This document shows, piece by piece, positions 1,207 through 63,073 of a stretch of DNA of 64,000 bases. Each line of letters begins with the position of its first letter. Within the stretch, counting starts at the first letter, position 1. A program made the translations under genes and the position numbers. The stretch spans positions 310,001 through 374,000 of the forward strand of contig NZ_JAQZAO010000003.1 of the NCBI RefSeq assembly GCF_028737315.1, read 5' to 3'. Source of the stretch: Actinomycetospora lemnae (GTDB taxonomy: Bacteria > Actinomycetota > Actinomycetes > Mycobacteriales > Pseudonocardiaceae). Below the pieces are notes generated by a model. It was not told the origin of the DNA. It was given only the letters and a program-made list of their open reading frames with translations, and did no database searches.

Positions 1207-1350
1207 CGCACCCTCGGTTCCTCGTCGGCCGCGGCACCACGTGCCCCGGCCGCGCCCTCGGGCGCCGGCGACTCGAGCCGCGGGCGTCCTCACCGAGGCA
1301 GTTCCCCCGGACCCAGCACCCCAACCCACCCTCGAGCGAGGAGCTCGCGG

Positions 1351-1944
1351 TCAGTGGAGAAGGGTGAGCAGGCCCTCGAGGCCCCGCCGGAACGCCTCGC
1401 CGACCCTCTCGGCGCCGTCGAGGGCGGCGCCGGTCATGGCGCCGTCGCGCATCATCGCGAAGTGGGCCGCGGCGTCCTCGGGCCTGCCGCGCCGCGGTGA
1501 GTCGTCGAAGACCTGGGCGAACAGCGCGGTCAGCGTGGCCACGTACCAGGCGCGGTGGTCGAGGATCAGCCGGCGCACCGGGTCGTCGGGGTCGGGGTAC
1601 TCGGCCGCGGCCTTGAGGAAGGCGCACCCGCGGAACGCCGGGTCGGTCAGGTCGTCGGTGACGGACGTCCCGATCGCCCGCAGCGCGTCGGCCGGTGACG
1701 CCGCGCCCTCGGTGGCGGCCTGCACCGCCGCGCGGGTGCGGGCGTCGACGCCGGCCAGGTAGGCCAGCACGAGGTCCTCCTTCGAGGGGAAGTGCCGGTA
1801 GAACGTCGCCCTCGTCGCCGGCGCCTCGCCGAGGATCCGCTCGACCCCGACGGCCCGGATCCCCTCGCGGTAGAACAGCTCGCTCGCGGTGCTCAGCAGG
1901 CGTTCCCGGGCCTCCGAGCGGCCGGGGCGGGTCGGTGTCGTCAC
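1351..1944 (-). CDS. TetR family transcriptional regulator
   Basis: 197 aa from a GTG at 1944. The N-terminal helix-turn-helix is clear (ARERLLSTASELFYREGIRA, then TRATFYRHFPSKEDLV, residues about 10-57), followed by the divergent helical ligand domain. The gene is divergent from the membrane protein at 2056, and two inverted copies of AGAAAGAMCGWTC lie between them, so it probably represses itself and that neighbour. The in-frame ATG at 2001 would put the first operator copy inside the coding region and adds residues unlike any TetR N-terminus. The ligand is unknown. Confidence 0.88.
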   Translation of the reverse strand: MTTPTRPGRSEARERLLSTASELFYREGIRAVGVERILGEAPATRATFYRHFPSKEDLVLAYLAGVDARTRAAVQAATEGAASPADALRAIGTSVTDDLTDPAFRGCAFLKAAAEYPDPDDPVRRLILDHRAWYVATLTALFAQVFDDSPRRGRPEDAAAHFAMMRDGAMTGAALDGAERVGEAFRRGLEGLLTLLH

Positions 1945-1958
1945 GGCTCGACCGTAGC

Positions 1959-2035
1959 AGAAAGAACGATCGGTCTTGCCGGCCGCGCCGCGGTGTGCCA
2001 ACCTCGCTGTGGACCGCAGAGAGAACGGTCTTTCT
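1959..2035. promoter_or_regulatory. TetR operator pair between divergent genes
   Basis: Copy 1 (1959-1971, plus strand) reads AGAAAGAACGATC and copy 2 (2023-2035, minus strand) reads AGAAAGACCGTTC, an 11/13 match in inverted orientation. They flank the space between the TetR start (1944) and the membrane protein start (2056). Assignment to this TetR is inferred from position. Confidence 0.55.
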
Positions 2036-2055
2036 TTCTATGAAAGGGACTCGTC

Positions 2056-2628
2056 ATGACCGCCACCGCCACCGCCCCGGCCGGGTTCGGTGCCGTCCCG
2101 ACGCTCCGGCGGCTCCACGCCGCGCGGGCCGTCTTCGCCGTCGTCTGGGCGGTCCTGCTGTTCCTGACCGCCTCGACCGTCGGCGTCGCGGCCGCGGTGC
2201 TGCTCGTGCTGTACCCCCTGGTCGACGCGGCGGCCGCCGTCGTCGAGGCCCGCCACGCGCGGGCCGGCGGGTCGACCGGGGTCCTGGTCACCAACGTCGC
2301 GATCAGCGTCGTCGCCGCCGTCGGGCTCGCCCTGGCGCTGACCTCGGGCGCCCCGGCCGTCCTGCGGGTGTGGGGGGCCTGGGCCGTCGTGTCCGGGCTC
2401 GTGCAGCTGGCCGTCGCCGTGCCGCGGCGCCGCCTCGGTGGCCAGTGGTCGATGGTCGCCAGCGGCGGTCTGTCGGTGCTGGCCGGGGTGGCGTTCGTCC
2501 TCATGGCGTCGGGCGCCGGGGCGTCGCTGGTGGGCGTGGCCGGCTACGCGCTGCTCGGCGGGGTCTTCTTCCTGGTCTCGGCGCTGCGGCTCGGTGCCGC
2601 GGGGAGGGGTGGCCGGCCGGCGGCGTGA
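2056..2628 (+). CDS. Small multi-pass membrane protein (HdeD/DUF308-like)
   Basis: 190 aa with about six hydrophobic helices and short charged loops, starting at ATG 2056 just after the second TetR operator copy. Length and the pattern of paired short helices resemble the HdeD/DUF308 group of acid- or stress-associated membrane proteins, but no motif settles the family. It is the only gene that the divergent TetR at 1351 could control on the right. Function unknown. Confidence 0.7.
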   Translation: MTATATAPAGFGAVPTLRRLHAARAVFAVVWAVLLFLTASTVGVAAAVLLVLYPLVDAAAAVVEARHARAGGSTGVLVTNVAISVVAAVGLALALTSGAPAVLRVWGAWAVVSGLVQLAVAVPRRRLGGQWSMVASGGLSVLAGVAFVLMASGAGASLVGVAGYALLGGVFFLVSALRLGAAGRGGRPAA

Positions 2629-2673
2629 GCGGCGCGACGGGCTGTTGCGTCTCGCCACGACGAGGAGCACGAT

Positions 2674-2705
2674 CGGACCGATCGGTCCGGGACCGGTCGG
2701 TCCGA
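2674..2705. promoter_or_regulatory. Palindromic operator ahead of the thiolase operon
   Basis: CGGACCGATCGGTCCG at 2674-2689 is a perfect 16-bp palindrome. A second, imperfect copy around GGACCGGTCGGTCC follows directly (2690-2705). The pair ends 16 bases before the thiolase ATG at 2722. The likely binder is the TetR at the end of the same operon (4643). Confidence 0.6.
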
Positions 2706-2721
2706 CTCGGAGGAGGCAGCC

Positions 2722-3933
2722 ATGAGGGACGCGGTCATCGTCGACGCCGTACGCACACCGCTCGGCAAGGGGAAGCCGAACGGCGCCTACGCCGGGGTGC
2801 ACCCGGTGGAACTGCACGCGCACGTCCTGCGGGCGCTGGTCGACCGGACGGGGCTCGACCCCGCCGACGTGGACGACGTCGTCGGCGGCGCGGTCGGCCA
2901 GGTCGGCGAGCAGAGCGGCAACACCACCCGCTTCGCGGCGCTCGCCGCGGGCTTCCCCGAGTCGGTGCCCGGGGTGACGGTCGACCGGCAGTGCGGCTCG
3001 AGCCAGCAGGCCCTGTCGTTCGCCGCCCAGGGCGTCGTCGCCGGCGCCTACGACATCGCGATCGCCTCCGGCGTCGAGTCGATGTCGCGCATCCCGATCG
3101 GCAGCCAGGCGCTGGTCGACGGGGTGCGCCAGGACGTCGCCGGCCCGTCGGTCGGCGCGCGCTACGCGCCCGGGCTCATCCCGCAGGGCGTGAGCGCCGA
3201 GCTCATCGCGCGGAGGTGGGGCCTCTCGCGCGGGCAGCTCGACGAGTTCGCCCTCGCCAGCCACCGGAAGGCCGCCGCGGCGTGGGCCGAGGGCCGCTTC
3301 GCCGGCGAGGTCGCGCCGCTCAAGGCCGCCCGCGCCGACGGCTCGGTCGCCCTGCTCGAGACCGACGAGACGGTCCGCCCCGGGACCACCGCCGAGGCGC
3401 TGGCCGGCCTGCGTCCGGCGTTCGCCGACCCGCGCTGGACCGAGCGCTTCGGCGCGATCGACTGGACGGTCACGGCCGGGAACGCGAGCCCCGTCAACGA
3501 CGGCGCCGCCGCGCTGCTCGTCACGACCTCCGAGGTCGCGGCCGCCCACGGCTGGACGCCCCGGGCGCGCGTGCACACCGCCACCGTCACCGGCGACGAC
3601 CCGGTCCTCATGCTCACCGGGATCATCCCGGCCACGGCCAAGGTCCTCGCCCGCGCGGGGCTCGCGCTCGGCGACGTCGACGCCTTCGAGGTCAACGAGG
3701 CGTTCGCGTCGGTGGTCCTGGCGTGGCTCACCGAGACCGGCGCCGACCCGTCCCGGGTCAACGTCCACGGCGGCGCCATCGCCGTCGGGCACCCGCTCGG
3801 CGCCAGCGGCGCCCGCCTGGCCACCACCCTGCTCGGCGTCCTCGAGCAGACCGGCGGGCGCTACGGCCTGCAGACGATGTGCGAGGCCGGCGGCACCGCC
3901 AACGCCACCATCGTCGAGAGGCTCGACCGATGA
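2722..3933 (+). CDS. Acetyl-CoA acyltransferase (thiolase)
   Basis: 403 aa, full thiolase length. The acylated cysteine is Cys91 (DRQCGSSQQ), the active-site histidine is His357 (VGHPLGASG) and the second cysteine is Cys387 (MCEAGG). The CEAGG form, rather than CIGGG, is common in actinobacterial degradative thiolases. It should cleave a 3-ketoacyl-CoA, or condense acetyl-CoA, in the cytosol. The RBS is GGAGG. It shares an ATGA overlap with the SDR downstream, so the two are co-translated. The substrate cannot be read from sequence. Confidence 0.92.
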   Translation: MRDAVIVDAVRTPLGKGKPNGAYAGVHPVELHAHVLRALVDRTGLDPADVDDVVGGAVGQVGEQSGNTTRFAALAAGFPESVPGVTVDRQCGSSQQALSFAAQGVVAGAYDIAIASGVESMSRIPIGSQALVDGVRQDVAGPSVGARYAPGLIPQGVSAELIARRWGLSRGQLDEFALASHRKAAAAWAEGRFAGEVAPLKAARADGSVALLETDETVRPGTTAEALAGLRPAFADPRWTERFGAIDWTVTAGNASPVNDGAAALLVTTSEVAAAHGWTPRARVHTATVTGDDPVLMLTGIIPATAKVLARAGLALGDVDAFEVNEAFASVVLAWLTETGADPSRVNVHGGAIAVGHPLGASGARLATTLLGVLEQTGGRYGLQTMCEAGGTANATIVERLDR

Positions 3934-4628
3934 TCGTCACCGGGACCCACGCCCTGGTCACCGGCGCCCACCGCGGCCTCGGCGCGGCGCTGGTCGAGGA
4001 GCTGCTCGCCCGCGGGGCGGGCACCGTGTACGCCGCCGCGCGCGACCCGCGTCACCTCGCGCACCCGGACCCGCGCGTCGTGCCGCTGCGCCTCGACGTC
4101 ACCGACCTGCGCACGATCCGCGAGGCCGCCGCACGGGCCGACGACCTCGACCTGCTCGTGAACAACGCCGGCGTCGGCGGCGCCGGGTCCCTGCTGACCG
4201 CCGATCCCGAGCGGGCGCGGGCCGAGATGGAGACCAACTACTGGGGCCCCGTCGCGGTCCTGCGCGCGTTCGCGCCCGTGCTCGCGCGCCGCGGCGGGGG
4301 CACCGTCGTCAACGTGCTCTCGGCGCTGGCCTGGGCGGCGGCGCCGTGGGCGGGCTCGTACGGTGCGACCAAGGCGGCGGCGTGGTCGTTCACCAACAGC
4401 GCGCGCGCCGAGCTGCGGGCGCAGGGCACACGCGTGGTGGGGGTGCACCTGGGGTTCATGGACACCGACATGGTGGCCCACCTCGACGTGCCGAAGATCG
4501 CGGCGCCGGACGTGGCGGCGCGCATCCTCGACGCGGTCGCGGGGGACGATGACGAGGTGCTCGCCGACGTCCCGAGCCGCACGCTGAAGGAGGCGTTGGC
4601 GGGCCCCCCGAAGGGCCTCGAGCTGTGA
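3930..4628 (+). CDS. Short-chain dehydrogenase/reductase
   Basis: 232 aa, classical SDR. The cofactor loop is TGAHRGLG near the N-terminus, followed by NNAGVGG and the catalytic YxxxK as YGATK. The start is the ATG overlapping the thiolase stop; the very long upstream frame is a shadow of the thiolase. With the thiolase it probably forms a small beta-oxidation-type or alcohol-oxidising operon under the TetR that follows. Cofactor preference is not certain. Confidence 0.88.
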   Translation: MIVTGTHALVTGAHRGLGAALVEELLARGAGTVYAAARDPRHLAHPDPRVVPLRLDVTDLRTIREAAARADDLDLLVNNAGVGGAGSLLTADPERARAEMETNYWGPVAVLRAFAPVLARRGGGTVVNVLSALAWAAAPWAGSYGATKAAAWSFTNSARAELRAQGTRVVGVHLGFMDTDMVAHLDVPKIAAPDVAARILDAVAGDDDEVLADVPSRTLKEALAGPPKGLEL

Positions 4629-4642
4629 AGGAGTGATCGTCG

Positions 4643-5233
4643 GTGCCCCGCACGCCCGACCCCGGCACGCGCGAGCGCATCCTCGACGTCGCGTCGCGGC
4701 TGTTCTACACGCACGGGGTGCGCGCGATCGGCACCCAGCAGGTCGTCGCCGAGGCCGGCACCGGGAAGAACCTGCTCTACCAGCACTTCCCGACCAAGGA
4801 CGACCTGGTCGCGGCGTACCTGGCCCGCGCCCGCGAGCGCGTCGAGCGTGCCGCTGACGCCGCCGTGGCGGCGGCCGGCGACGACCCCGGCGACCAGCTC
4901 GTCGCGCTGGTCGCCGAGGTCGGCGCGCAGGTCCGGCGACGCGACTTCCGCGGCTGCGCCTTCCGCAACCTGCTCGCGGAGTTCCCCGGCGAGGAGTCCG
5001 CGCCGGTCGCCGTCGCGCGCGCCATGGTGCAGCACTCGCGGGGGCGGGTCGACGAGCTCGTGGCCCGCCTCGGGGCCGCCGACCCCCGCGAGGTCGCCGA
5101 ACGCCTCTGGCTCGTCGTGGACGGCCTCTACGTCCAGGCCGCCTACCGCGACCGCCTCGACGGCGCCCGCGACGCGGCCGTCGACACCGCCGTCGGGCTC
5201 GCCCGCCGGATCGTCGACGACGCTCGGCGCTGA
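4643..5233 (+). CDS. TetR family regulator of the thiolase-SDR operon
   Basis: 196 aa from a GTG at 4643, 14 bases after the SDR stop. The HTH (RERILDVASRLFYTHGVRAI through YQHFPTKDDLVAAYL) closely resembles that of the TetR at 1351, including the RGCAFRN segment in the ligand domain, suggesting paralogues. As last gene of the operon it probably binds the 16-bp palindrome ahead of the thiolase and represses its own operon. The inducer is unknown. Confidence 0.88.
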   Translation: MPRTPDPGTRERILDVASRLFYTHGVRAIGTQQVVAEAGTGKNLLYQHFPTKDDLVAAYLARARERVERAADAAVAAAGDDPGDQLVALVAEVGAQVRRRDFRGCAFRNLLAEFPGEESAPVAVARAMVQHSRGRVDELVARLGAADPREVAERLWLVVDGLYVQAAYRDRLDGARDAAVDTAVGLARRIVDDARR

Positions 5234-5276
5234 CGGCACGCGTCGCCCGTCCCGAGGACGCCGGAGACGATCGCGA

Positions 5277-6767
5277 CTACCCGATCGACCGCTCGCGGTC
5301 CGCCCAGTACGGGGCCCGGAGCGCCTTCTTGTCGATCTTCCCGAACGGCGTGACGGGCAGGTCGTCGACGAGCTCGGCGGACTTCGGACGCGCGTACGCC
5401 GCGAGCCGGTCCCGGCACCAGGTCAGGATCTCGTCCGCGTCGGCAGCCCCTTCCGGGACGACCACGGCGTGGACGGCCTCGCCCCAGTCGCGGTGGGGGA
5501 CGCCGATGACCGCGACCCGCGAGACCGCGGGGTGGCCGGCGAGCACGTTCTCGACCTCGCTGCAGTAGACGTTCATGCCACCGCTGATCACCATGTCGGC
5601 CCGGCGGTCACGCAGGTGCAGGTAGCCCCGGTCGTCGAGGAACCCGAGGTCGCCGGTGCGGATCCAGCCGTCGGGCAGGAACTTGTCGGCCGTCGCCGCC
5701 GGATCGTCGAGGTAGCCCTCGAGGACGTAGGGCGACCGCAGGCAGACCTCGCCGGTCGTCCCCGCCGGTGCGGTCTCGAGGCGGTCGTCGACGACGGCCA
5801 CGTCGGCCATGATCGAGGCCCGCCCGCACGAGTCGAGGAGCTCGGGACGGGCGGGGTCGTGGTCGTCCTTGGCCAGTCGCGTGCCCCAGTTCGGGCACTC
5901 CGTCTGGCCGTAGAGCTGGACGAACACGGGCCCGAACACCTCCAGGGCACGGGCGAGGCGGTCGGGCGTGATCGGCGCCGCGCCGTAGACGACCGTCCGC
6001 AGACCGAGCGGCTCCGGCCCGTCGAGGGCATCGAGCAGGCGGTAGAGCATCGTCGGGACGAGGAAGGTCCAGGTGATCGCGCGGGTGCGCAGCGCGGTGA
6101 GCACGTGGTCGACGTCGAAGCCCGGTTCGATGACGCTCGTGGCGCCCCGGATCAGCGCGGACTGGGCGAACAGTCCCGCGGCGTGGGCGAGCGGCGTGGT
6201 CAGCAGCAGCCGGTCGTCCTGCACGATCTCGGCCTCGAGGAGCTGCGCGTACTGGACGGCGACGGTCGAGGCCTGTGTGTGCACGACGCCCTTGGGGCGC
6301 CCCGTCGTCCCCCCGGTGAAGTAGATCGCCGCAGCTGCGTCGGGACCGACGACCGCCGGTGACGTGACGGGGGGCCGGGACGGATCGGCGAGGTCGTCGA
6401 CCGGGATGACCGGCACCTCCGGGGGGAGCTCCACCCCGAGCCCGGGGTCGACGATCACGACCCGCGCCCGGGTGGCCGCGACGATGTACCGGACGGTGTC
6501 GGCAGGCAGCAGCGGGTTCACCGGCACCTTCACCGCGCCGAGGAGCGCCACCGCCACGTCCGCGACGACGAACTCGACCCCGTTCGCGAGGTACAGCGCC
6601 ACGGCGTCGCCGGCCGCCACCCCGTGCGCCCGCAGCTGCGTGGCGACGGCGCGTGACCAGGCGTCGACGTCGCCGAAGGTCCAGCTCCGTCCGGCCGCCT
6701 CCACGGCGGACCGGTCGCGGTAGCGGTGCAACGCCGCCGCGAACTCCGCTCCCAGCGTCCTCCGCAC
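5277..6767 (-). CDS. Acyl-CoA synthetase (AMP-binding family)
   Basis: 496 aa, ANL superfamily. The P-loop-like motif is YFTGGTTGRPKG, followed by YGQTE, the hinge GWIRTGDLG, and the catalytic C-terminal lysine in PFGKIDKKAL. It activates a carboxylic acid to the acyl-AMP and then the CoA thioester. It is the last gene of the minus-strand run that starts at 11010, 24 bases after the SDR stop. The neighbours (thiolase-like aldolase with DUF35, P450, LLM monooxygenase) suggest a terpenoid, steroid-like or cyclic acid substrate, but the sequence alone does not say. Confidence 0.9.
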   Translation of the reverse strand: MRRTLGAEFAAALHRYRDRSAVEAAGRSWTFGDVDAWSRAVATQLRAHGVAAGDAVALYLANGVEFVVADVAVALLGAVKVPVNPLLPADTVRYIVAATRARVVIVDPGLGVELPPEVPVIPVDDLADPSRPPVTSPAVVGPDAAAAIYFTGGTTGRPKGVVHTQASTVAVQYAQLLEAEIVQDDRLLLTTPLAHAAGLFAQSALIRGATSVIEPGFDVDHVLTALRTRAITWTFLVPTMLYRLLDALDGPEPLGLRTVVYGAAPITPDRLARALEVFGPVFVQLYGQTECPNWGTRLAKDDHDPARPELLDSCGRASIMADVAVVDDRLETAPAGTTGEVCLRSPYVLEGYLDDPAATADKFLPDGWIRTGDLGFLDDRGYLHLRDRRADMVISGGMNVYCSEVENVLAGHPAVSRVAVIGVPHRDWGEAVHAVVVPEGAADADEILTWCRDRLAAYARPKSAELVDDLPVTPFGKIDKKALRAPYWADRERSIG

Positions 6768-52860: not shown

Positions 52861-53787
52861 TCAGGCGTCGGTGTCGCCGCGGTCGGGCGGGTCGGCGGTC
52901 ACCAGCAGGAACTCGGGGACGCCGGCGAGCATCCGCTGCCAGGAGGGGCTGAAGCTCTCCGTGACCTGGGCCGCGGGCACGACGCGCGGCGCGGTGACGG
53001 TCCGGCGCCGGCCGTCGAAGGTGACGGCTCCGCCCCCGGCGGCGAGGAGGTTGAGGCACCAGTCGGTGTCGCGGCCGTACGGCAGGGGGAGGGCGAAACC
53101 GTCGGGCACGGGTCGCGCGGCGACGGGGGTGGCGTACGCGCGTCCGGAACGGCGCCCGACGTGCTCGATCCGCGCCGCGTACCAGTGCCGTCGCCCGGCC
53201 AGGCGCAGCATCAGCGGGTTGAGGACGTACTTGTTGAACGTCCGGACGGCCTCGTTCGAGCGCGAGTGCCCGCCGGCTCCGGGCGCGGTCGTGCAGCGGT
53301 ACTCCTCCACGACCGACCACGGGCCGCCGTCGACGCTCGTCTCCTTGCGCCGGACGAGCTCGTCCGGGCCCTGCAGCTCCCACGTGAGCCGGGTCCGGAC
53401 CGTGGGGTCGCCGGTGGACTCGAACACGAGCCGGTCACCGTCGATGTGGCCGGACATCACCTCGGCGTGGCCGTGGCAGTCGGCCAGCACGGCGCGGTAC
53501 TCGTGACGTGCGGGATCCCATCCCGCGACCCAGTGGAGCTGCCGGCTCTCGACGTGGGTGCCGTCGAGCAGGTACTGCTCCTGACGGTGGTCGCCGACGA
53601 CCCACCGGCCGTCCTGGATCCGGTGGTGGGTCGCGGCGCCGGTGGCCGTCATGGCCGGGGTCCCGGGCCCCGCGCCCCCTTCGGCGATGGTGCCGGTCCA
53701 GGTGGTGTCGCGGTGGAAACGCATCAGGTCCGCCATCTCGTCACCGGTGGTGACGGGCTGCGGCACGGTGTCCTGCACGGTCGTCAC
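52861..53787 (-). CDS. DUF1579-DUF385 fusion (F420-type split-barrel)
   Basis: 308 aa from GTG 53787. Residues about 15-150 resemble DUF1579 (lipocalin-like: QYLLDGTHVESRQLHWVAGW). From about 165 there is a DUF385/Ddn-like deazaflavin fold: FNKYVLNPLMLRLAGRRH, HVGRRSGRAYATPVAA, then LNLLAAGGGAVTFDGRRR. Ddn-type enzymes reduce quinones or nitro compounds with F420H2; whether this one binds F420 is inferred. A GGGACC-type box 56-70 bases upstream suggests hypoxia/redox control. Confidence 0.8.
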   Translation of the reverse strand: MTTVQDTVPQPVTTGDEMADLMRFHRDTTWTGTIAEGGAGPGTPAMTATGAATHHRIQDGRWVVGDHRQEQYLLDGTHVESRQLHWVAGWDPARHEYRAVLADCHGHAEVMSGHIDGDRLVFESTGDPTVRTRLTWELQGPDELVRRKETSVDGGPWSVVEEYRCTTAPGAGGHSRSNEAVRTFNKYVLNPLMLRLAGRRHWYAARIEHVGRRSGRAYATPVAARPVPDGFALPLPYGRDTDWCLNLLAAGGGAVTFDGRRRTVTAPRVVPAAQVTESFSPSWQRMLAGVPEFLLVTADPPDRGDTDA

Positions 53788-54540
53788 GGCGGTCTCCTCG
53801 GTCGGTGGCCACCCAGCGTGGGCGGGTCCGGATGCGTGGACAGCCGCCGAAGGTCCCGTTCCCGGGCGCCCGACCGCCCGCACCCCGCGGTCCCCGAACG
53901 GCCCTTGCCCGCGGCCGACCTCGACGTGGTCCCCCGGAGACGGGCGCACCGCGGTGCCCGACCAGGTCTGCAGGGGACGGGGATCCGGGACGTTCGGTCC
54001 TGTCCCGGGACGGGGGGTCACCGCATCGTCGGGGTCGGGCCCGCCGCGGAGCCACGGTCGGTGTGGAGGAGAAACGCCGCCCCCCTCGGTCGGCGGGCCC
54101 ACCCGGAGCACGGGCACCCACGCGGAGGTCACGACCGCGGAGGTCGTACGCCGTGGGTCTGCGTGCACGCGCCGGCCGGCGGCGCGTGGCGCCGAGACCC
54201 GCTCGAACGGTGTCTGCACGCATGGTCACCCGCGGCTCCGGGTTGCCGGGCGTCGGCCTGGCCGCCCCCGTGGGTGCGCCGGGCCGGCGCCCGGTCCCAC
54301 GCGCGCCGCGAGGACGACGTGACCGTCGGCGACGAGCCGCCCGAGCCGTCCGAGCCGCCCGAGGCCGGACGACAGGACAGGAGGCAGGGGCGAACGTCCT
54401 GGCGCACGACCCCGGCGGCGGCCGCGTCCCCGTGCCGAGGGACCTGCGGGCCCGGTCCTCCCGGCCTCTGCCCGGCGCTGCGCGTCCGGCCCACGCTGCG
54501 GAACGCACCGACGTCGGGACGCAGCGGGAGGGCGTGCGCC
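53788..54540. other. 753-base gap with several GGGACC-type boxes
   Basis: No frame reads as a protein. It holds four motif matches: 53843-53857 (minus, GGGACCTTCGGCGGC), 53889-53905 (GGTCCCCGAACGGCCCT), 53987-54001 (minus, AGGACCGAACGTCCC) and 54439-54453 (plus, GGGACCTGCGGGCCC). The first faces the DUF1579-DUF385 gene and the last the DUF998 gene. An unannotated RNA in the middle cannot be excluded. Confidence 0.5.
54439..54453 (+). promoter_or_regulatory. DosR-like box upstream of the DUF998 gene
   Basis: GGGACCTGCGGGCCC, 87 bases before ATG 54541. It matches GGGACC-N3-GGNCCC fully. Confidence 0.5.
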
Positions 54541-55263
54541 ATGTCGACACTCGAGCAACCGAGCCCGGTCGAGCGGTCCCGTCCGGGCACCGGCAGCCAG
54601 GCGCTCACCCGCGTCCTGCTCTCCTGCGGGATCGCCTACGCCCTGCTCTACGTCGTGGGCAACGACGTGCTCGCCGCGGGCCGGTTCCCCGGCTACGACC
54701 GGCTCGCGCAGAACATCAGCGAGCTGTCCGCCATCGGGTCGCCGGTCCGGACCCTCGAGCTCGCCGTGCTGCTCCCGGCGGGGACCGCCCTGATGGTCGC
54801 GTTCGGCGTCGGTGTGTGGCGCTCCGCAGCGGGCCGGCGCTCCCTGCTGGTCGCCGGCGGCCTCATCGTGGCGTGCGGGCTCGTCGGGCTTGTCGCCCTC
54901 GCGTTCCCGATGACCTCGCGCGCCCTGCTGGTCGCCGCGGGCGCGATGCCGTCCAACGATCTCGGGCACATCGTGCTGACGGGGGTCACCGTCCTGCTGA
55001 TCGTCGGGATGATCGCGGCGGCGGCGGTGCCGTTCTCGACCGGGTTCCGGGTGTACTCGGTGGTCTCGGCGCTCGTCGTCCTCGTCTTCGGCGCCCTGAC
55101 CGGGACGCAGGCCCCGCAGCTGGCGGCCGGGGCGCCGACGCCGTGGATGGGCCTGTCGGAGCGGGTCAGCATCGGGGCCTGGTTGCTGTGGCTGGTCGTC
55201 CTCGCCGTCGTCCTGCTCGCCGGCACTCGGCGAGTCGCCTCGACCGGGAGCGACGCACGATGA
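54541..55263 (+). CDS. DUF998 family membrane protein
   Basis: 240 aa with about six membrane helices. RLAQNISELSAIGSPVR after helix 1 is the conserved DUF998 loop. Function unknown; members are often in stress or lipid loci. It starts at ATG 54541, 87 bases after a GGGACC-type box, which places it in the putative redox regulon. Confidence 0.85.
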   Translation: MSTLEQPSPVERSRPGTGSQALTRVLLSCGIAYALLYVVGNDVLAAGRFPGYDRLAQNISELSAIGSPVRTLELAVLLPAGTALMVAFGVGVWRSAAGRRSLLVAGGLIVACGLVGLVALAFPMTSRALLVAAGAMPSNDLGHIVLTGVTVLLIVGMIAAAAVPFSTGFRVYSVVSALVVLVFGALTGTQAPQLAAGAPTPWMGLSERVSIGAWLLWLVVLAVVLLAGTRRVASTGSDAR

Positions 55264-55336
55264 CCTGAGGTTGCGTGCCACCGGTGACCGGTCCGGCGCC
55301 GGAAAGGTCGTCAGCGGCACCGGCCACGCCGCGAGC

Positions 55337-55604
55337 ATGGAGGTCGGCTGCCCTCGCGAGCGCGTGTTCGCCGGGTTCGTCGACGGTGACCTGTACAGCC
55401 GGGCGTGCCGGTCCTGACCGAGAACGGCCGCCCCGCCGCCACCCTCGAGTGGGGCACGCAGGCCCGGGGACGTTACGACACTGGTGTGGAGCCCGAGCTC
55501 GTCCTCGTGGTGTGGGACTTCGACCGACGAGGTGCGATCCGCGGGACGGCTGCCGTGTGCGGGTGGACCAGCCCGGGCGCGCTCGAGTGCGGGGGCGAGC
55601 GCGT
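55337..55604 (+). pseudogene. Possible remnant of an AHSA1/SRPBCC gene
   Basis: From ATG 55337, CPRERVFAGFVDGDLYSR resembles the start of AHSA1-type SRPBCC proteins but stops after 26 codons. A shifted frame then reads PELVLVVWDFDRRGAIRG, which also resembles the family interior. The middle part is missing, so this looks like a decayed copy. The 341-base interval 55264-55604 holds no other gene. Confidence 0.35.
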
Positions 55605-56282
55605 TCACGGAGGTGGCGCCGACGTCCCCGCGCTCTCGATGGTGCGTTTGAGGATGACGGTCATCCGGGCCTGCATGGGCCACACGAGCAGGACGAACAG
55701 CCACGGGACGAGGAATCGCTCGATCCAGCGGGGACGGAACACCTGGTGACCGCTGATCACGAGCCGGGTGTGCCCGTGCGGTGTCTCGTCGAGCCGGAAT
55801 CCCCAGGTGCCCTCCATGTAGGCCTCGGGACGCCGGTCGTCGGGCTCGAGCCAGCGTCCCCGCAGGTCGGTGCACCCGTACAGGCACAGGAAGTGCGGAG
55901 GGTCGAGCACGGCGACCCGGTAGGCGTCGACGACGTGGCCCAGCGCCCAGTACCGGAGCTGGTCACCGACGGCGAGGTCCTGCCACTCGGGATGGACTTC
56001 CGTCGCGCTCGGGCGGCCGGCGTTGTCGAGGTGGTCCCAGGAGTACCAGCCTCCGCGGTCCCACCCCATCTGCACGAGCCACGGCCAGACCTGGTGGGGC
56101 GGCGCCTCGATGGTGACCGCCATCGTCGGGGACCGGGTTCCGCCGGGGACGAGGTCGCCGCCGGGGAAGGCGTCGTTGACCTCGGCGTCGGTCGCACCCC
56201 ACCGCATGAGGGCAGGACGGACCCACCGATCGATCGCACCCGCTGACGCCGCGGCCAGCATCACCTTGCGCACCAGGCCCAC
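55605..56282 (-). CDS. SRPBCC family protein
   Basis: 225 aa from GTG 56282. A START-like helix-grip fold is suggested by MAVTIEAPPHQVWPWLVQMG, then YSWDHLDNA, GDQLRYW, and a late hydrophobic helix (FLVPWLFVLLVWPMQARM) that may anchor it to the membrane. Such proteins bind lipids or small hydrophobic ligands. It is divergent from the GyrI-like gene, with a DosR-like box in the gap 121 bases upstream. Confidence 0.8.
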   Translation of the reverse strand: MGLVRKVMLAAASAGAIDRWVRPALMRWGATDAEVNDAFPGGDLVPGGTRSPTMAVTIEAPPHQVWPWLVQMGWDRGGWYSWDHLDNAGRPSATEVHPEWQDLAVGDQLRYWALGHVVDAYRVAVLDPPHFLCLYGCTDLRGRWLEPDDRRPEAYMEGTWGFRLDETPHGHTRLVISGHQVFRPRWIERFLVPWLFVLLVWPMQARMTVILKRTIESAGTSAPPP

Positions 56283-56402
56283 CTGGCCAGCGTCGGCCGC
56301 GATCGCCGGCCCCGTCAGGGGCGAACGGCCTCGAAGCGGGAGCTGAAGGGAGGACCGTGCTGCCCGCCGCCACCGTGTCCTGGTGGTCGCTGAACGTCGT
56401 CA

Positions 56403-56417
56403 CGGGACTTCGGTCCC
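56403..56417. promoter_or_regulatory. DosR-like box between SRPBCC and GyrI-like genes
   Basis: Plus strand CGGGACTTCGGTCCC; minus strand GGGACCGAAGTCCCG. The 14-bp core GGGACTTCGGTCCC differs from the mycobacterial DosR core (GGGACT-WW-AGTCCC) at three positions. It is 59 bases before the GyrI-like ATG at 56477. Confidence 0.55.
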
Positions 56418-56476
56418 TGGCGCGGGCGGCCCGTTCCCGGTTGCGTCCCGAACCCCAGCGGCAGGAAGGACGACCC

Positions 56477-56947
56477 ATGGGCCACGACGACATCACCATC
56501 ACCCACGAGACCGGACGCCGGCTGGCCGCCGTCCGCTACGAGGCCCGGGCGGCGGACATCGCGGCGAAGGCCGGCGAGGCCTTCCGGAAGGTCGCCGTCC
56601 ACCTCGCCCGCACCGGGGTGCCCATCACCGGTCCGGCCGTCTCCGTCTTCGAGGCGGACGAGGACGCCTTCTCCGTCACCTCCGGCTTCGTCGTCGAGAG
56701 CGACGTCGAGCCGGGCGAGGGGGTCGAGCCGTTCCGGCTCCCGGAGGTCGAGGTCGCGACCACCACGCACGTCGGGCCGTACGACGAGCTGGACAAGGCC
56801 TACGAGGCACTCGGCCGAGGGGCCACCGCTCGTGGGCGCCGCGTCGACGACACGGGCCCGATGTGGGAGGAGTACTGGAGCGGTCCCGAGACGCCGCCGG
56901 CCGAGGCCCGCACCGTCGTCTTCCGCCCGTTGGTGCCCTCGCGGTGA
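56477..56947 (+). CDS. GyrI-like / AraC effector-binding domain protein
   Basis: 156 aa from ATG 56477 with RBS GGAAGG. A stand-alone GyrI-like small-molecule-binding domain: RLAAVRYEARAADIAAKAG, VEVATTTHVGPYDELDKAY with the conserved GPY, and MWEEYWSGPE with the binding-site glutamate. It probably binds a cationic or hydrophobic ligand; no DNA-binding part is attached. The box 59 bases upstream suggests redox induction. Confidence 0.82.
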   Translation: MGHDDITITHETGRRLAAVRYEARAADIAAKAGEAFRKVAVHLARTGVPITGPAVSVFEADEDAFSVTSGFVVESDVEPGEGVEPFRLPEVEVATTTHVGPYDELDKAYEALGRGATARGRRVDDTGPMWEEYWSGPETPPAEARTVVFRPLVPSR

Positions 56948-57017
56948 GCGGGCGGGCAGCCCCGTCAGGCGTACGCGACCCCGGCACCGTGGTGCAGCCG
57001 AGCGGCACGGAGGCGCC

Positions 57018-57031
57018 GGGGCCTTGGTCCC
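57018..57031. promoter_or_regulatory. DosR-like box upstream of the PRTase-hydrolase gene
   Basis: Plus strand GGGGCCTTGGTCCC; minus strand GGGACCAAGGCCCC. It lies 87 bases before ATG 57119. Confidence 0.5.
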
Positions 57032-57118
57032 GCCCCGCCGGGTCCCGCGACCGTGCCGCGATCCGGCGCGAGGGCGAGGGTCGCGGGTGAGCCATCGCCG
57101 TGGTCGGGGAGGCAGGAC

Positions 57119-58441
57119 ATGGGGTTCATCGATCGTGTCGACGCCGGGCGACAGCTGGCCGGCGCTCTGCAGCACCTGCGCACCGAGGACGTGGTCGTGC
57201 TCGGCCTGCCACGCGGTGGCGTCCCGGTGGCCGCCGAGGTCGCCCGAGTGCTCGGCGCGCCGCTGGACGTGATCGTCGTGCGCAAGCTGGGGGTGCCGTT
57301 CCAGCCCGAGCTCGCCCTGGGGGCGGTCGGTGAGGGCGACGTGCTGGTGCTCAACGAGCGCATCTTCCACTGGGCGCACGTCAGCGAGGCGGAACTGGCC
57401 GAGATCGAGCGCCGGGGCCGGGGTGAGGTCGAGCGCCGTGCCCGACGATTCCGTCGCGACCGCGCCCGGCTCCCGCTGTCCGGGCGCACCGCCCTGCTCG
57501 TCGACGACGGCATCGCGACCGGGGCGACGGCTCGTGCCGCGTGCCAGGTCGCCCGGGCCCAGGGCGCGGTGCGCGTCGTGCTCGCCGCACCGGTCTGTGC
57601 TCCCGACGCCGCGGCGCGGTTGCGTGAGGAGGTCGACGAGCTGGTGTGCCTGGAGCTCCCGCACCGGTTCCTCGGGGTGGGCCAGTCCTACGGCGACTTC
57701 AGCCAGGTCGCCGACGAGGAGGTCGCGGACCTGCTGCGGCGGGCGGTGCACGAGGAACCGACGCCGTCGGCGCCGGCCCACGGTGACCCGCCCCCGCACA
57801 CCTCAGAGGTCCGCATCCCGGTGGGGGCGGTCCAGCTCGAGGGCCGGCTCGTCCTCCCGGACGGGGCCGCCGGAGTGATCGTCTTCGCCCACGGCAGTGG
57901 CAGCAGCCGTCACAGCCCGCGCAACCGGTACGTGGCCGGGGTCCTGCAGCGGGCCGGGTTGGCGACGCTGCTGGTCGACCTGCTCACGCCCCAGGAGGAG
58001 ACCAGCCGCGGCCACGTCTTCGACATCGATCTCCTGGGTCGCCGGCTCGTCGGGGTGACCGAGTGGGTGGCGCACCGACCCGAGTGCGCCCAGCTGCCCG
58101 TCGGCTACTTCGGCGCGAGCACCGGTGCGGCCGCGGCTCTGTACGCGGCGTCCCAGGTGGACGTCGCGGCGGTCGTCTCGCGCGGGGGACGACCGGATCT
58201 CGCCGGTCCGCGTCTGGGGGAGGTGCGCGCACCGACGCTGCTGATCGTGGGCGAGCACGACAGACCGGTGATCGAGCTCAACCGGCGCGCCCAGGCCCGC
58301 CTGCGGTGCGAGAACCGCCTGGAGATCGTGCCGGGTGCCACCCACCTGTTCGAGGAGCCCGGCACGCTCGAACTGGCCGCCGCGCTCGCTCGCACGTGGT
58401 TCGTCGACCATCTCGCCCCTGTCCGGCTGGCGCGGACCTGA
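57119..58441 (+). CDS. Phosphoribosyltransferase-hydrolase fusion (Rv0571c-like)
   Basis: 440 aa from ATG 57119. Residues 1-215 are a type I PRTase-like domain with VVLGLPRGGVPVA and the PRPP loop ALLVDDGIATGATA (about 123-137). From 225 on there is an alpha/beta hydrolase of dienelactone-hydrolase type (VIVFAHGSGSSRHSPRN, FGASTGAAAAL, LLIVGEHDRPV, GATHLFEEPG). Length and order match Rv0571c of M. tuberculosis, a DosR-regulon gene. Its reaction is unknown. It is followed by a universal stress protein after ten bases. Confidence 0.9.
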   Translation: MGFIDRVDAGRQLAGALQHLRTEDVVVLGLPRGGVPVAAEVARVLGAPLDVIVVRKLGVPFQPELALGAVGEGDVLVLNERIFHWAHVSEAELAEIERRGRGEVERRARRFRRDRARLPLSGRTALLVDDGIATGATARAACQVARAQGAVRVVLAAPVCAPDAAARLREEVDELVCLELPHRFLGVGQSYGDFSQVADEEVADLLRRAVHEEPTPSAPAHGDPPPHTSEVRIPVGAVQLEGRLVLPDGAAGVIVFAHGSGSSRHSPRNRYVAGVLQRAGLATLLVDLLTPQEETSRGHVFDIDLLGRRLVGVTEWVAHRPECAQLPVGYFGASTGAAAALYAASQVDVAAVVSRGGRPDLAGPRLGEVRAPTLLIVGEHDRPVIELNRRAQARLRCENRLEIVPGATHLFEEPGTLELAAALARTWFVDHLAPVRLART

Positions 58442-58451
58442 CACCCCCGGG

Positions 58452-58964
58452 ATGGACTCGACAGATCGCACGGCGCCCGGACCCGATCCCCGCTCCGGCC
58501 TCGTCACGGGCGTGGTCGTGGTCGGGGTCGACGGGTCCGACGCCTCGTGCCGGGCCCTCGGCCACGCCTCGCGCTCGGCGGCGGCGCGGGGCGCCCGCCT
58601 GCGCGTCGTCACGGCCTACCAGCCACCGGAGTGGATGCGCGCTCGCGGACTGGGACCGGCGGAGGTCGCACCGGCACCCAGTCGGCCCGTCCCCGCCTGC
58701 GAGGACCTGGCGACGGCGCGGCGGATGACCGACGAGGCGCTCGCCGCACTGCGGGACGGGACGCAGCTCCCGAGGGATGTCGAGGTGCTGGCGCTGCCGG
58801 GGGACCCGGTCGACGTGCTGAGCGAGGCGGCGCAGGGTGCGGACGAGCTGGTGGTCGGGCACAGGGGTCGCGGACCGGTCGCCGGCCTGCTGCTGGGATC
58901 GGTCGCTGTGGGGTGCCTCTTCCGGGCGACCTGCCCGGTGACCGTGGTGCGCGGGAAGCGGTGA
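58452..58964 (+). CDS. Universal stress protein (single domain)
   Basis: 170 aa from ATG 58452. One USP domain: VVVVGVDGSDASCRAL near the N-terminus and VGHRGRGPVAGLLLGSVA, the G-2x-G-9x-G-S ATP-binding pattern, near the end. It is in an operon with the PRTase-hydrolase fusion. USPs with ATP motifs occur in DosR-type regulons and slow growth in hypoxia. Confidence 0.9.
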   Translation: MDSTDRTAPGPDPRSGLVTGVVVVGVDGSDASCRALGHASRSAAARGARLRVVTAYQPPEWMRARGLGPAEVAPAPSRPVPACEDLATARRMTDEALAALRDGTQLPRDVEVLALPGDPVDVLSEAAQGADELVVGHRGRGPVAGLLLGSVAVGCLFRATCPVTVVRGKR

Positions 58965-59179
58965 CCGGTCGGGACGGGGGGTGCCCGACGCCCGCGGTTG
59001 GTCCGCTCGGGCGGGGGCGCTGTCTCCCGGGCGCGGGTCGGCCCGGACCTCACCCGTCCCGTGGGTAGCTCGCGACCACCGGCCTGCTCCTCCTGCCCGG
59101 ACGGCCCGGGCGCCGTCCGGGCTCCCGGCGAACCGTTGCCGACGGGATGGGCGATGGCTCATCGGCAGAGAGGCGTGTG

Positions 59180-59335
59180 ATGGACACGGAACGGGCCGGT
59201 CATGGCGAGGACCACGCGGGAGTCAGGATCGGGAGGGTCGACGGCCTCGGTCTGCCCGTCGAGCGGCTGCTCGACGACGGCGTCACGGGTGCCCACGTCG
59301 GTCTCCTCGTCGCGCAGCCGGCGGTGGCGGCGTGA
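59180..59335 (+). CDS. Small hypothetical protein before the tandem USP gene
   Basis: 51 aa from ATG 59180, RBS AGAGAGG. Its TGA overlaps the GTG of the next gene (GTGA), which supports a real, translated gene. Sequence (DGLGLPVERLLDDGVTGAHVGLLVAQP) has a short amphipathic helix; no family recognised. It may only couple translation. Confidence 0.55.
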   Translation: MDTERAGHGEDHAGVRIGRVDGLGLPVERLLDDGVTGAHVGLLVAQPAVAA

Positions 59336-60273
59336 GCGCGGGTGGGTCCGGCCGCTCCCCGGGATCGGTCGTGGTCGGTGTCGACGGTTCGGAGCCGTCC
59401 CTGCGCGCGGTGCGGTGGGCCGCCCGTGAAGCGGCCCGGCGCGGCCGCGGCCTGCGGATCGTGCTGGCCCACGACGATGTCGATCCGGCGGTGATCGCCG
59501 ATCCGCAGATGTGGCGTCGCCTCCAGCAGGACCTCCTCGACCGCGCCGAGCACGCCGCGGAGCGCGCGGTCGCGGCAGCCGGCGAGGTCGCTCCGGAGCT
59601 CTCGGTCACCGAGGAGCTCGTCCACGGCCCGGCGGCGCCGGTGCTGCTCGACCGGGCCGGCGACGGGCTCCTCGTGGTGGGTGCAGGGGGAGAGGGCGGC
59701 CTCGGCGAACCGTTCACCGGATCGGTCGGCTCGACGGTGGTCGCCCACGCCGCGGGGCCGGTCGTCGTGGTGCGCGGGAACGAGGGGACGGACGCGGAGG
59801 CACCGGTGGTCGTCGGGGTCGACGGGTCCCCGGCCAGCGACGCGGCGATCGACTTCGCGGTGGAGGCCGCTGACGCCGCCGGGTGCCCGCTCGTCGCCGT
59901 GCACACCTGGTGGGACACGCTCCTGGGCCCCGAGCTGGAACCCCTGCTCGACTGGGGGGCGATCTCGGTCGACGAGCACCGGGTCCTGGCCGAGCAGCTC
60001 GCCGGGCGCTCCGCCGAGCACCCCGACGTCGCCGTGTCCACCGTCCTCGAGCGGTCCCATCCCTCGCGGGTCCTGCTCGAGCAGGCTCAGGGCGCGCGGC
60101 TGCTCGTGGTCGGCACCCGCGGACGGGGCGGCTTCGCCGGGCTCGTCCTCGGGTCCGTCAGCCGGCGGATGGTGCACCGGGCCCCGTGCCCGGTCGCGGT
60201 CGTGCCGCCGCCGGGGAGTCCCCACCACCCGCTCGCGGGCACGCGGGGGGCCACCGTCGCGGCGAGGACGTGA
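59332..60273 (+). CDS. Tandem-domain universal stress protein
   Basis: 313 aa from GTG 59332. Two USP domains: SVVVGVDGSEPSLRAV with GAGGEGGLGEPFTGSVG, and PVVVGVDGSPASDAAI with GTRGRGGFAGLVLGSVS. Both ATP-binding patterns are intact. Layout and length match the tandem USPs of the DosR regulon (Rv2005c, Rv2623 type). The only nearby motif candidate (58971-58986, GGGACGGGGGGTGCCC) is weak. Confidence 0.92.
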   Translation: MSAGGSGRSPGSVVVGVDGSEPSLRAVRWAAREAARRGRGLRIVLAHDDVDPAVIADPQMWRRLQQDLLDRAEHAAERAVAAAGEVAPELSVTEELVHGPAAPVLLDRAGDGLLVVGAGGEGGLGEPFTGSVGSTVVAHAAGPVVVVRGNEGTDAEAPVVVGVDGSPASDAAIDFAVEAADAAGCPLVAVHTWWDTLLGPELEPLLDWGAISVDEHRVLAEQLAGRSAEHPDVAVSTVLERSHPSRVLLEQAQGARLLVVGTRGRGGFAGLVLGSVSRRMVHRAPCPVAVVPPPGSPHHPLAGTRGATVAART

Positions 60274-60332
60274 CCGGGCGTCCGACGACGCGGACCCGGC
60301 CCGGCCGGCGACCCTGACGATCGGCCGAGGGA

Positions 60333-60572
60333 TCACGACGGTCGGGTGCGCCCGACCCGCCCGCGGAGGAAGTAGACGATCGGCACGAGGCCGGCGGCGT
60401 TGACCAGGGTGATGGCGGCGGCCCACGCCGCCTTCTCTCCCCGGACCTCCTCACGGGGTCGTGACGCGAGGTCGATCAGTGCCGCGATCTTCAGGCCGAA
60501 CTCGAGTCCGGCGCCGAAGACGATGGCTCGCTGGAGTCGGGGATCGAGGTCGTTCCACCGGGTGCTGCCCAC
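60333..60572 (-). CDS. Small two-helix protein
   Basis: 79 aa from GTG 60572. RLQRAIVFGAGLEFGLKIAALIDL and the later ITLVNAAGLVPIVYFLRGR form two hydrophobic helices around a charged loop. The second helix resembles the N-terminal membrane helix of PLDc_N-type small proteins. It is divergent from the CBS protein, sharing an upstream region with a DosR-like box. Confidence 0.7.
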   Translation of the reverse strand: MGSTRWNDLDPRLQRAIVFGAGLEFGLKIAALIDLASRPREEVRGEKAAWAAAITLVNAAGLVPIVYFLRGRVGRTRPS

Positions 60573-60718
60573 GAGGGCAGTGTCGCCGTCGTGGGCCTCG
60601 CGACGAGGACCGCTCGTCCCGGATGCGCCGGCCGGTCGACCTGCCGACGGTCGACGGCGCCGGGGCGACGGCGACCGTGGGAGCGATGCGACCACGGACC
60701 ACGCGCCGCCGCTCGCCC

Positions 60719-60733
60719 GGGACCAAGGGTCCC
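60719..60733. promoter_or_regulatory. DosR-like box upstream of the CBS protein
   Basis: GGGACCAAGGGTCCC, perfect 6-bp arms around AAG, 56 bases before ATG 60790 and 146 from the divergent small gene. Confidence 0.55.
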
Positions 60734-60789
60734 CGATCTCGGGATGTTCGCCAGGGTGGACGGCCCGTCCCGGGCCGCAGGCTCGAGCC

Positions 60790-61722
60790 ATGGTGCTACG
60801 GGCCCGGGACGTCATGACCCGCCGAGTCGTCACGGCGTTCCCCGAGACGACGATCGAACGGGCCGCCGAGGTGCTGACCGAGAACCGCTTCAGCGCGCTG
60901 CCCGTGGTCGACGACCGGCACCGCCTCGTCGGCATCGTGACCACCTCGGACCTGCTCCGCGCCGCGGTCGTGCACGATCGCGTGGGGGAACCGGTCGGAG
61001 AGGTGATGACCACAACCCCGATGTTCATGACCTCGGACGCCGACGTGCGCATCATCGCCCACCGACTCCGTCGTTACGGGGAACGACGGGCCATGCCGAT
61101 CGTCGACAAGGGCGTGGTGGTCGGGATCGTCACCCGCGGCGACATCCTGCGCCGACCTCCGCGAGGGGGCCCGGTGGGGCGGTGGTTCGACCGCCTCACC
61201 CCGGGGAGACCGCATCACCGGGGGTGGCGGTCCGGGGGCCGCGGGGGACGGTGTGCGGCCGACGTGATGACTCCCCTCGAGGACGTCATCTGCGTCGACG
61301 AGGACGCCCTGGTCGACACCGCCGCCGCGCTGCTGACGCAGAACCGCTGGAGGGCGCTGCCGGTGCTGAGCGGGGACGACCTCGTCGGCGTCGTCAGCGA
61401 GGCCGACCTGTTGCCCGACCGGCTCACCGGCCGGCGCACACCGCTGCCGCGCACGGTCGGCGGTGCGATGTCCCGCGACCTGGTCACCGTGCGCGCCAGC
61501 ACCTCGACCGACGATCTCGCCCGAGCCATGGTCTCTCGGGGTCTGCGGATGGTGCCCGTCGTCGACGACGACGACCGGATGGTCGGCGTGGTGAGCCGAG
61601 GGGATCTCCTCCGCGAGGAGTATCGCCGGAGGCGGTCGACGAGGGCGGCGTCCTCGCCGTCGTCGTCCTCACCCGGATCAGTCGACGAGCGGCACACGTC
61701 GGACGTCGTCGAAGGTCCGTGA
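60790..61722 (+). CDS. Four-CBS-domain protein
   Basis: 310 aa from ATG 60790. Two Bateman pairs: CBS1 from ARDVMTRRVVTAFPE, CBS2 from GEVMTTTPMFMTSD, CBS3 from AADVMTPLEDVICVD, CBS4 from GGAMSRDLVTVRAS, each with the closing VGIV/VGVV-S/T-xxDLL motif. A basic linker separates the pairs. CBS pairs bind AMP, ATP or SAM. The nearest known parallel in a redox regulon is Hrp1 (Rv2626c), with only two CBS domains. Its last 45 bases overlap the hydrolase on the other strand. Confidence 0.92.
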   Translation: MVLRARDVMTRRVVTAFPETTIERAAEVLTENRFSALPVVDDRHRLVGIVTTSDLLRAAVVHDRVGEPVGEVMTTTPMFMTSDADVRIIAHRLRRYGERRAMPIVDKGVVVGIVTRGDILRRPPRGGPVGRWFDRLTPGRPHHRGWRSGGRGGRCAADVMTPLEDVICVDEDALVDTAAALLTQNRWRALPVLSGDDLVGVVSEADLLPDRLTGRRTPLPRTVGGAMSRDLVTVRASTSTDDLARAMVSRGLRMVPVVDDDDRMVGVVSRGDLLREEYRRRRSTRAASSPSSSSPGSVDERHTSDVVEGP

Positions 61723-62278: not shown

Positions 62279-63073
62279 TCAGCAGACGGCGGAGAACCGC
62301 TCGCGGTAGTCGCTCGGGGAGTAGCCGTAGGCGCCGCGGAACGCCCTGCTGAAGTGGCTGGCGTCGGTGAAGCCCCAGCGGATCGCGATGTCGGTGATGG
62401 TCCCGGCGGTGGTGACGATGTCGTGCCGCGCCCGCGCCAGACGTCGGGTGCGCACGTACGCGGCCACGGTCTCCCCGGACTCCTCGAACATGCGGTACAG
62501 CGTGCGCACCGAGACGCCCTGGGCGGCGGCGATCCGTTCCGGTCGCAGGTCGCCGCTCGGCAGCTGCCCCTCGATCCAGGCGTCGACCAGGGCGCGCGGC
62601 GGGGTCGGGACATGCGTCCCGGACGACGGGCCCGCACCGGCGAGCGCGGCGGCGACCAGCTCCAGCGCCGCGTTGCGCGCGGCACCCCGCGCCGCGGTGT
62701 CGAGCTGTGCGCCGCTGCGCGCCAGCAGGTCCAGGTAGCCGGCCAGGAGCTGCGTCGCGGACGCCGTCGGCTCGAGCACGGCGGACCGGAAGAGGCGGGA
62801 AGCTCCGCCGACCTCGTCGAGGGCCGGGGAGGTCCGCGCCGCCCGCCGTCGGCTCCGGACGCCGCTGCAGGGGTCGCAGGCCGTGTCGACGATCGTGAGG
62901 TCGTGCAGCCGGTGGCGGCGGACCCGCGCCCGGAACGCCGACCGCGGCCGGTCCGGGGCGAGCCGCACCGCCATGTCGAGGTGGGTGCGCGACATGAGGG
63001 CCTCGACGGCGGCCTCGCGCTGGTCCGGGAGGACGTCGTCGACGTCCTCGACGAGCGCCGGGAGCCCGGTCAC
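62279..63073 (-). CDS. AraC family regulator with shortened sensor domain
   Basis: 264 aa from GTG 63073, overlapping the TetR stop (GTGA). The C-terminal two HTH motifs are complete (LRPERIAAAQGVSVRTLYRM, ITDIAIRWGFTDASHFSRAF). The N-terminal domain resembles the AraC-binding-2 type, but passes from TACDPCSGVRSRRRAART directly to RLFRSAVLEPTASATQLLAG, lacking about 60-80 residues of the usual cupin. It may sense nothing or bind a different ligand. Confidence 0.8.
   Translation of the reverse strand: MTGLPALVEDVDDVLPDQREAAVEALMSRTHLDMAVRLAPDRPRSAFRARVRRHRLHDLTIVDTACDPCSGVRSRRRAARTSPALDEVGGASRLFRSAVLEPTASATQLLAGYLDLLARSGAQLDTAARGAARNAALELVAAALAGAGPSSGTHVPTPPRALVDAWIEGQLPSGDLRPERIAAAQGVSVRTLYRMFEESGETVAAYVRTRRLARARHDIVTTAGTITDIAIRWGFTDASHFSRAFRGAYGYSPSDYRERFSAVC

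Follow-up and report, generated by a model that had tools for sequence, protein, structure and literature searches.

Outlying genes of Actinomycetospora lemnae with DosR/DevR-type boxes are very probably part of a DosR-type regulon

The region at about 53.8-57.1 kb of the analysed DNA, with the genes from 52861 to 58964, very probably belongs, as an outlier, to a DosR/DevR-type regulon of Actinomycetospora lemnae. The window is the whole stretch of 64,000 nucleotides (contig C24, positions 310001-374000) taken from genome G000, which comprises 6.06 Mb in 30 contigs. DosR, described in tuberculosis bacteria and in Streptomyces, governs dormancy under low oxygen. Judged from its sequence, the motif found in the window is a DosR/DevR/OsdR-type box, and the cluster most likely holds lineage-restricted members of a regulon, the system itself being an extension of a known kind. 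A DosR-like regulon had been proposed in a first-pass annotation of this DNA, and that proposal is supported by the presence of a regulator and a kinase in a box-rich island on another contig, C1, the window being without a DosR or DosS gene.

The search for a DosR/DevR orthologue in the genome returned one, C1:74091-74732, which matches DevR (3c3w) with an E-value of 5e-88 over 209 residues, contains a receiver domain (PF00072) and a LuxR-type helix-turn-helix (PF00196), and is identical to 3c3w in the recognition-helix stretch LAEKTVKNYVS; it is the single DosR-like gene of the genome at E 1e-75 or better. The same contig encodes a DevS-like kinase (C1:26914-28548), which matches DevS GAF structures at E 1e-46 to 1e-49, has a second GAF domain matching 2vjw (E 3e-11) and a kinase domain matching DevS/DosT, and carries a GFPPxHPPM stretch in which a histidine, presumably the haem ligand, aligns. 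Among NCBIfam models, the top ones for the regulator and the kinase were MadR and MadS, both below cut-off. Relatives of both DevR and DevS of Mycobacterium tuberculosis are present, with the difference that 46 kb of C1 separates the two genes, whereas devR and devS are adjacent in M. tuberculosis. Sites were scored with a 20-bp matrix trained on the intergenic DNA of C1, i.e., off the window, and this matrix found 58 sites in 9.5 kb of intergenic DNA in C1:1-100000 (L001-L005), including one scoring 20.2 about 160 bp upstream of the called dosR start, both of these results being in-sample. The 100-kb island holds 23 of the 40 Usp matches of the genome, and also two nitroreductases, Hsp20, WS/DGAT, a CBS protein, two pyridoxamine oxidases, cytochrome bd, phosphoketolase, alcohol dehydrogenase and a PPDK-like protein.

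Genes were called with a custom script, and the starts of the window's two universal stress protein (USP) genes were set by hand ahead of the upstream-region statistics. Pfam and TIGRFAM profile matches bore out the earlier gene list for the cluster, with DUF1579 falling just under its cut-off. On the minus strand, 52861-53787 encodes a fusion of a DUF1579 domain (Pfam, 23.8 bits, slightly below the cut-off of 25.2) with a DUF385-type half, a deazaflavin (F420)-type nitroreductase domain (TIGR00026, 52.6 bits against a cut-off of 46.35, E 6.5e-14). It is followed by a DUF998 membrane-type protein (54541-55263, plus strand; PF06197, 58.7 bits) and by a protein without a Pfam match (55605-56282, minus strand), which is divergent from the gene for a GyrI-like protein (56477-56947, plus strand; PF06445, 46 bits). 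Further along the plus strand, 57119-58441 encodes a phosphoribosyltransferase (PRTase)-hydrolase fusion, which we take to be Rv0571c-like and in which PF00156 scores above cut-off and the hydrolase families slightly below. A USP gene (58452-58964, plus strand; PF00582) starts 10 bp downstream of it and is probably co-transcribed with it; of the typical DosR-regulon member classes, the window has USP genes and the PRTase-hydrolase. Beyond these are a tandem USP (59332-60273, plus strand) without a supported box (top score 6.3), a small protein with PLDc_N slightly below cut-off (60333-60572, minus strand) and a four-CBS-domain protein (60790-61722, plus strand; PF00571 in four stretches).

All seven sequences that had been quoted as copies of the motif were found in place, and a shared motif is real, as a DosR-type box; the form first given to it, GGGACC-N3-G(G)NCCC, mixes two spacings. 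Its pooling of spacers of four and five bases was the reason for rejecting it, since enrichment upstream of genes in the C1 island is confined to four-base spacing; the form that is supported, 20 bp long, has a spacer of four bases, GGGAC-N4-GTCCC, and a strong half GGGACC. With half-sites allowed at most one mismatch, the upstream intergenic DNA of C1:1-100000 holds 21 pairs with a spacer of four, against 3, 5, 6, 3 and 1 with spacers of 2, 3, 5, 6 and 7, while 500 kb of other stretches gave 3, 6, 6, 7, 4 and 12 upstream pairs for spacers 2 to 7. In the window itself the upstream counts for spacers 3, 4 and 5 are 3, 3 and 7, so that five-base pairs exceed four-base pairs, which counts against the four-base box; these five-base matches may be partly shifted versions of the same sites together with G-runs. 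Across the genome the perfect GGGAC-N4-GTCCC was counted 17 times and the reversed control pattern four times. A 5-kb stretch of contig C1 accounts for three of the perfect copies, and one more is at 56404. Another perfect copy is seen at 62607-62620, within a called gene (62279-63073, minus strand; AraC-like by eye), and is probably due to chance.

Three of the five main sites proposed earlier stood up, namely those at 53843, 56403 and 57018, and the distances of the five to the start codons, put at 50-90 bases, are actually 56-102 bases. They correspond to a box at 53841-53860 (minus strand, score 12.0), which lies 54 bp upstream of the DUF1579 fusion gene, to the sole perfect GGGAC-N4-GTCCC of the cluster at 56401-56420 (plus strand, 11.5), and to a box at 57015-57034 (minus strand, 10.1), for which relatives have boxes at a comparable distance. 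The other two have five-base spacers and are unsupported: that at 54439 (54436-54455, plus strand) scores 7.7 and that at 60719 (60716-60735, plus strand) 8.1, both close to the 90th percentile (7.9) of the region maxima in 221 control regions. One of the two extra copies, at 53987, proved to be the top-scoring box of the cluster (53984-54003, plus strand, 16.3), and the other, at 53889, scores below 6. Two further boxes had been missed, at 54384-54403 (minus strand, 13.1) and 57037-57056 (plus strand, 10.1). Taken gene by gene, the assignment of boxes holds for the DUF1579 fusion, the GyrI-like gene, the PRTase-hydrolase and, via 54384, the DUF998 gene; the CBS site and the site that had been named for DUF998 are not supported.

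A second matrix was built from 23 of the 26 printed OsdR sites of Streptomyces (of the three others, one is a duplicate and two were overlooked), and shuffle controls preserved dinucleotides approximately. In the per-gene test, support from both matrices went to the DUF1579 fusion, to DUF998 and to the divergent pair formed by the GyrI-like gene and 55605-56282. The PRTase region is supported by the C1 matrix only (shuffle P 0.05; OsdR matrix score 1.3), the upstream regions of the tandem USP and CBS genes by neither matrix, and directly upstream of the window's USP genes there was no site scoring above 6.4.

Comparison with related genomes adds box evidence that does not depend on how the window region was picked. 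The GyrI-like gene occurs in five of 18 genus genomes (E 1e-20) and in five of 249 family genomes (E 1e-30), the identical five, and all five copies have GGGAC-N4-GTCCC with the box end 55-69 bp upstream of the start codon, amid differing neighbours; the sequence upstream of the box is poorly conserved and the box-to-gene stretch partly so. The DUF1579 gene is found in the same five of the 18 genus genomes (the match in G011 covering the first half only), all of which have DosR. The fusion has its own upstream site in three of the five, including a similar box scoring 15.1 in G006, and in G005 it is reached via a likely operon; no box was seen upstream of the gene in G002. It lies on the dosR contig in G002, G005 and G011, and away from dosR in G000 and G006. 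A DUF1579 homologue outside the genus (L091), which has two sites close to its start scoring 8.1 and 9.2, was excluded from these counts. A set of three genes common to the same five genomes was rejected, given that G002 has only the PRTase half and the full-length match of G005 is 49% identical; co-distribution is therefore claimed for two genes only, the GyrI-like and DUF1579 genes.

For the PRTase-hydrolase, sites scoring about 10 or more were found upstream in seven of eight full-length relatives from other genomes (L039-L043, L049, L050 and L056, of which L056 has no site of at least 8 and L042 reaches 10.0 only). The search gave 16 loci beyond that of the window, ten of which were scanned (L039-L044, L049-L051, L053), the other six (L045-L048, L052 and L054) being partial matches. 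From the count, L051 (14.5) was excluded because it sits in the matrix training region, and L044 and L053, both without a site of at least 8 directly upstream, because they are partial matches. Scanned from a second set of eight PRTase-hydrolase loci were L055, the record matching L039, and L056. The window protein is 87% identical to the copy of G011, whose locus L039 agrees in its genes and boxes with the Actinomycetospora lutea record L055; in the latter, a run of strong boxes (18.1, 15.8, 17.6 and 16.0) is seen at 700-6470, around the PRTase-hydrolase orthologue. In G006 a PRTase-hydrolase (L040) adjoins dosR. The Streptomyces netropsis PRTase-hydrolase showed no box upstream.

How many of the window genes belong to the regulon is finely balanced. 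We give about an even chance to a narrower membership, in which only the GyrI-like gene, the PRTase-hydrolase (plus the USP that follows it) and the DUF1579-nitroreductase fusion are controlled by DosR, while the DUF998, tandem-USP, PLDc_N and CBS genes simply lie alongside, their GGGACC sequences being due to chance. The conservation of the boxes of the first three is as this would predict, as is the failure of the CBS and tandem-USP regions, the CBS gene being present in 11 of 18 genus genomes with an upstream site in one of ten other orthologues. Against it, the DUF998 gene has the site of 13.1 (shuffle P 0.01), and the only other copy in the 18 genus genomes, that of G005, has a 12.1 box 58 bp upstream; moreover, the distance between the CBS gene of G006 and a PRTase-hydrolase with boxes is about 2 kb.

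It is improbable that the window boxes are read by some other LuxR-type regulator of similar site preference and not by the DosR of C1. DosR is present in 12 of the 18 genus genomes, related LuxR-type regulators do exist, and five of these 12 (G006, G009, G010, G011 and G015) encode two or three DosR-like proteins at the E 1e-75 threshold. The strict pattern GGGACCWYCGDCCC is also about equally frequent with and without DosR, with 120 matches to 42 for the control in the 12 DosR-positive genomes and 36 to 14 in the six others (three of them 59-84% complete and three 97-99%, the count for one, G007, being among the matches listed), i.e., no difference, which also counts against the DosR reading itself, and the genome-wide count was rejected as an indicator of DosR because these ratios do not differ. 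Near dosR genes the picture differs from expectation, with 49 of the 120 strict boxes in the 12 genomes lying within 100 kb of a dosR gene and 6.0 expected. The alternative is opposed by the lone DosR-like gene of G000 and by the match of the window boxes to a matrix derived from the dosR-bearing island.

The enrichment in the window was measured in upstream regions of 40-300 bp, for eight cluster genes against 351 control genes (sets of 310 and 41). The cluster genes had a median best score of 10.8, the control sets medians of 2.4 and 2.5 (Mann-Whitney p 4e-6 with the C1-trained matrix; p 7e-5 with the matrix from the published Streptomyces OsdR sites), where the eight genes amount to six distinct sequences from five intergenic regions, since two gene pairs have a common region. 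Three of these five regions exceed the 95th percentile (9.8) of the 221 control regions. The densest 4-kb stretch of the cluster has six sites scoring at least 10, compared with a maximum of three among 1008 overlapping control windows, and out of sample, nine sites scoring at least 9 were found in the 9.0 kb of non-coding DNA of the window, six of them at 53.8-57.1 kb. It had been said beforehand that a motif no commoner upstream of genes than elsewhere would speak against the regulon, and the enrichment in C1 and the window, together with the 4-kb density, shows otherwise. That the boxes are chance GGGACC-rich sequence within GC-rich intergenic DNA is very unlikely indeed, as a background exists (20 sites scoring at least 9 in 53.6 kb of control non-coding DNA; of the 23 control stretches, ten were picked around other USP genes and 13 at round coordinates) but is exceeded by both the enrichment and the density, and the conservation of the GyrI-like and PRTase boxes in other neighbourhoods contradicts this reading for both.

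Of the known systems, the OsdR regulon of Streptomyces coelicolor, as described in PMC5069765, has the same box type: its printed site CGGGACCTTCGGCCCT is contained whole in a C1 site, a C1 site has 16 bases in common with the printed site of SCO5979, and the OsdR-controlled USPs, nitroreductase, pyruvate phosphate dikinase and pyridoxamine oxidase also occur on C1. The OsdR consensus is given there as AGGGCCGATCGGCCCT, whereas the strong half here is GGGACC, and the GyrI-like and DUF1579-nitroreductase genes are absent from its printed table of predicted sites (PMC5069765). The DosR/DevR box of M. tuberculosis appears in PMC2275270 as the palindrome TTSGGGACTWWAGTCCCSAA, from which the box here differs at the centre; the same source includes Rv0571c among the genes with a DosR motif. 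The literature searches, with most subscription journals outside their scope, gave no report tying Actinomycetospora, Pseudonocardia or GyrI-like proteins to DosR. To our knowledge, DosR/DevR regulons do not usually include GyrI-like or DUF998 genes. Within the GyrI-like proteins, PMC5684135 describes cyclopropanoid hydrolases with an essential Glu pair (E157 and E185 in lin2189) and an aromatic cage; the protein here matches the Pfam family at family level only.

In the DosR-type regulon that we favor, the DevS-like GAF-GAF histidine kinase from C1 would sense oxygen loss or NO, and the phosphorylated DevR-type regulator would then bind the window boxes about 55-155 bp upstream of the genes and presumably switch them on. 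The induced products would be the PRTase-hydrolase, probably the USP directly behind it, the GyrI-like protein, the DUF1579-nitroreductase fusion and perhaps the DUF998 protein, with putative redox or detoxification roles. The window cluster appears to bring a few uncommon genes into the DosR system. It is conceivable, though we lean somewhat against it, that the GyrI-like and DUF1579-nitroreductase genes form a portable module which joined the DosR regulon in some Actinomycetospora and moves between the island and outlying clusters. If true, dormancy would gain a “detoxification arm” undescribed for DosR in the papers searched. The findings suggest that a complete dormancy regulon of the DosR type, including a regulator, a sensor and Streptomyces-like boxes, exists in a bacterium that has nothing to do with the virulence of the tuberculosis germ and whose genus had no such report in the searches made, and they point to a regulon that would take in lineage-restricted genes via movable boxes, its GyrI-like and nitroreductase members being hints at what such regulons may guard against.
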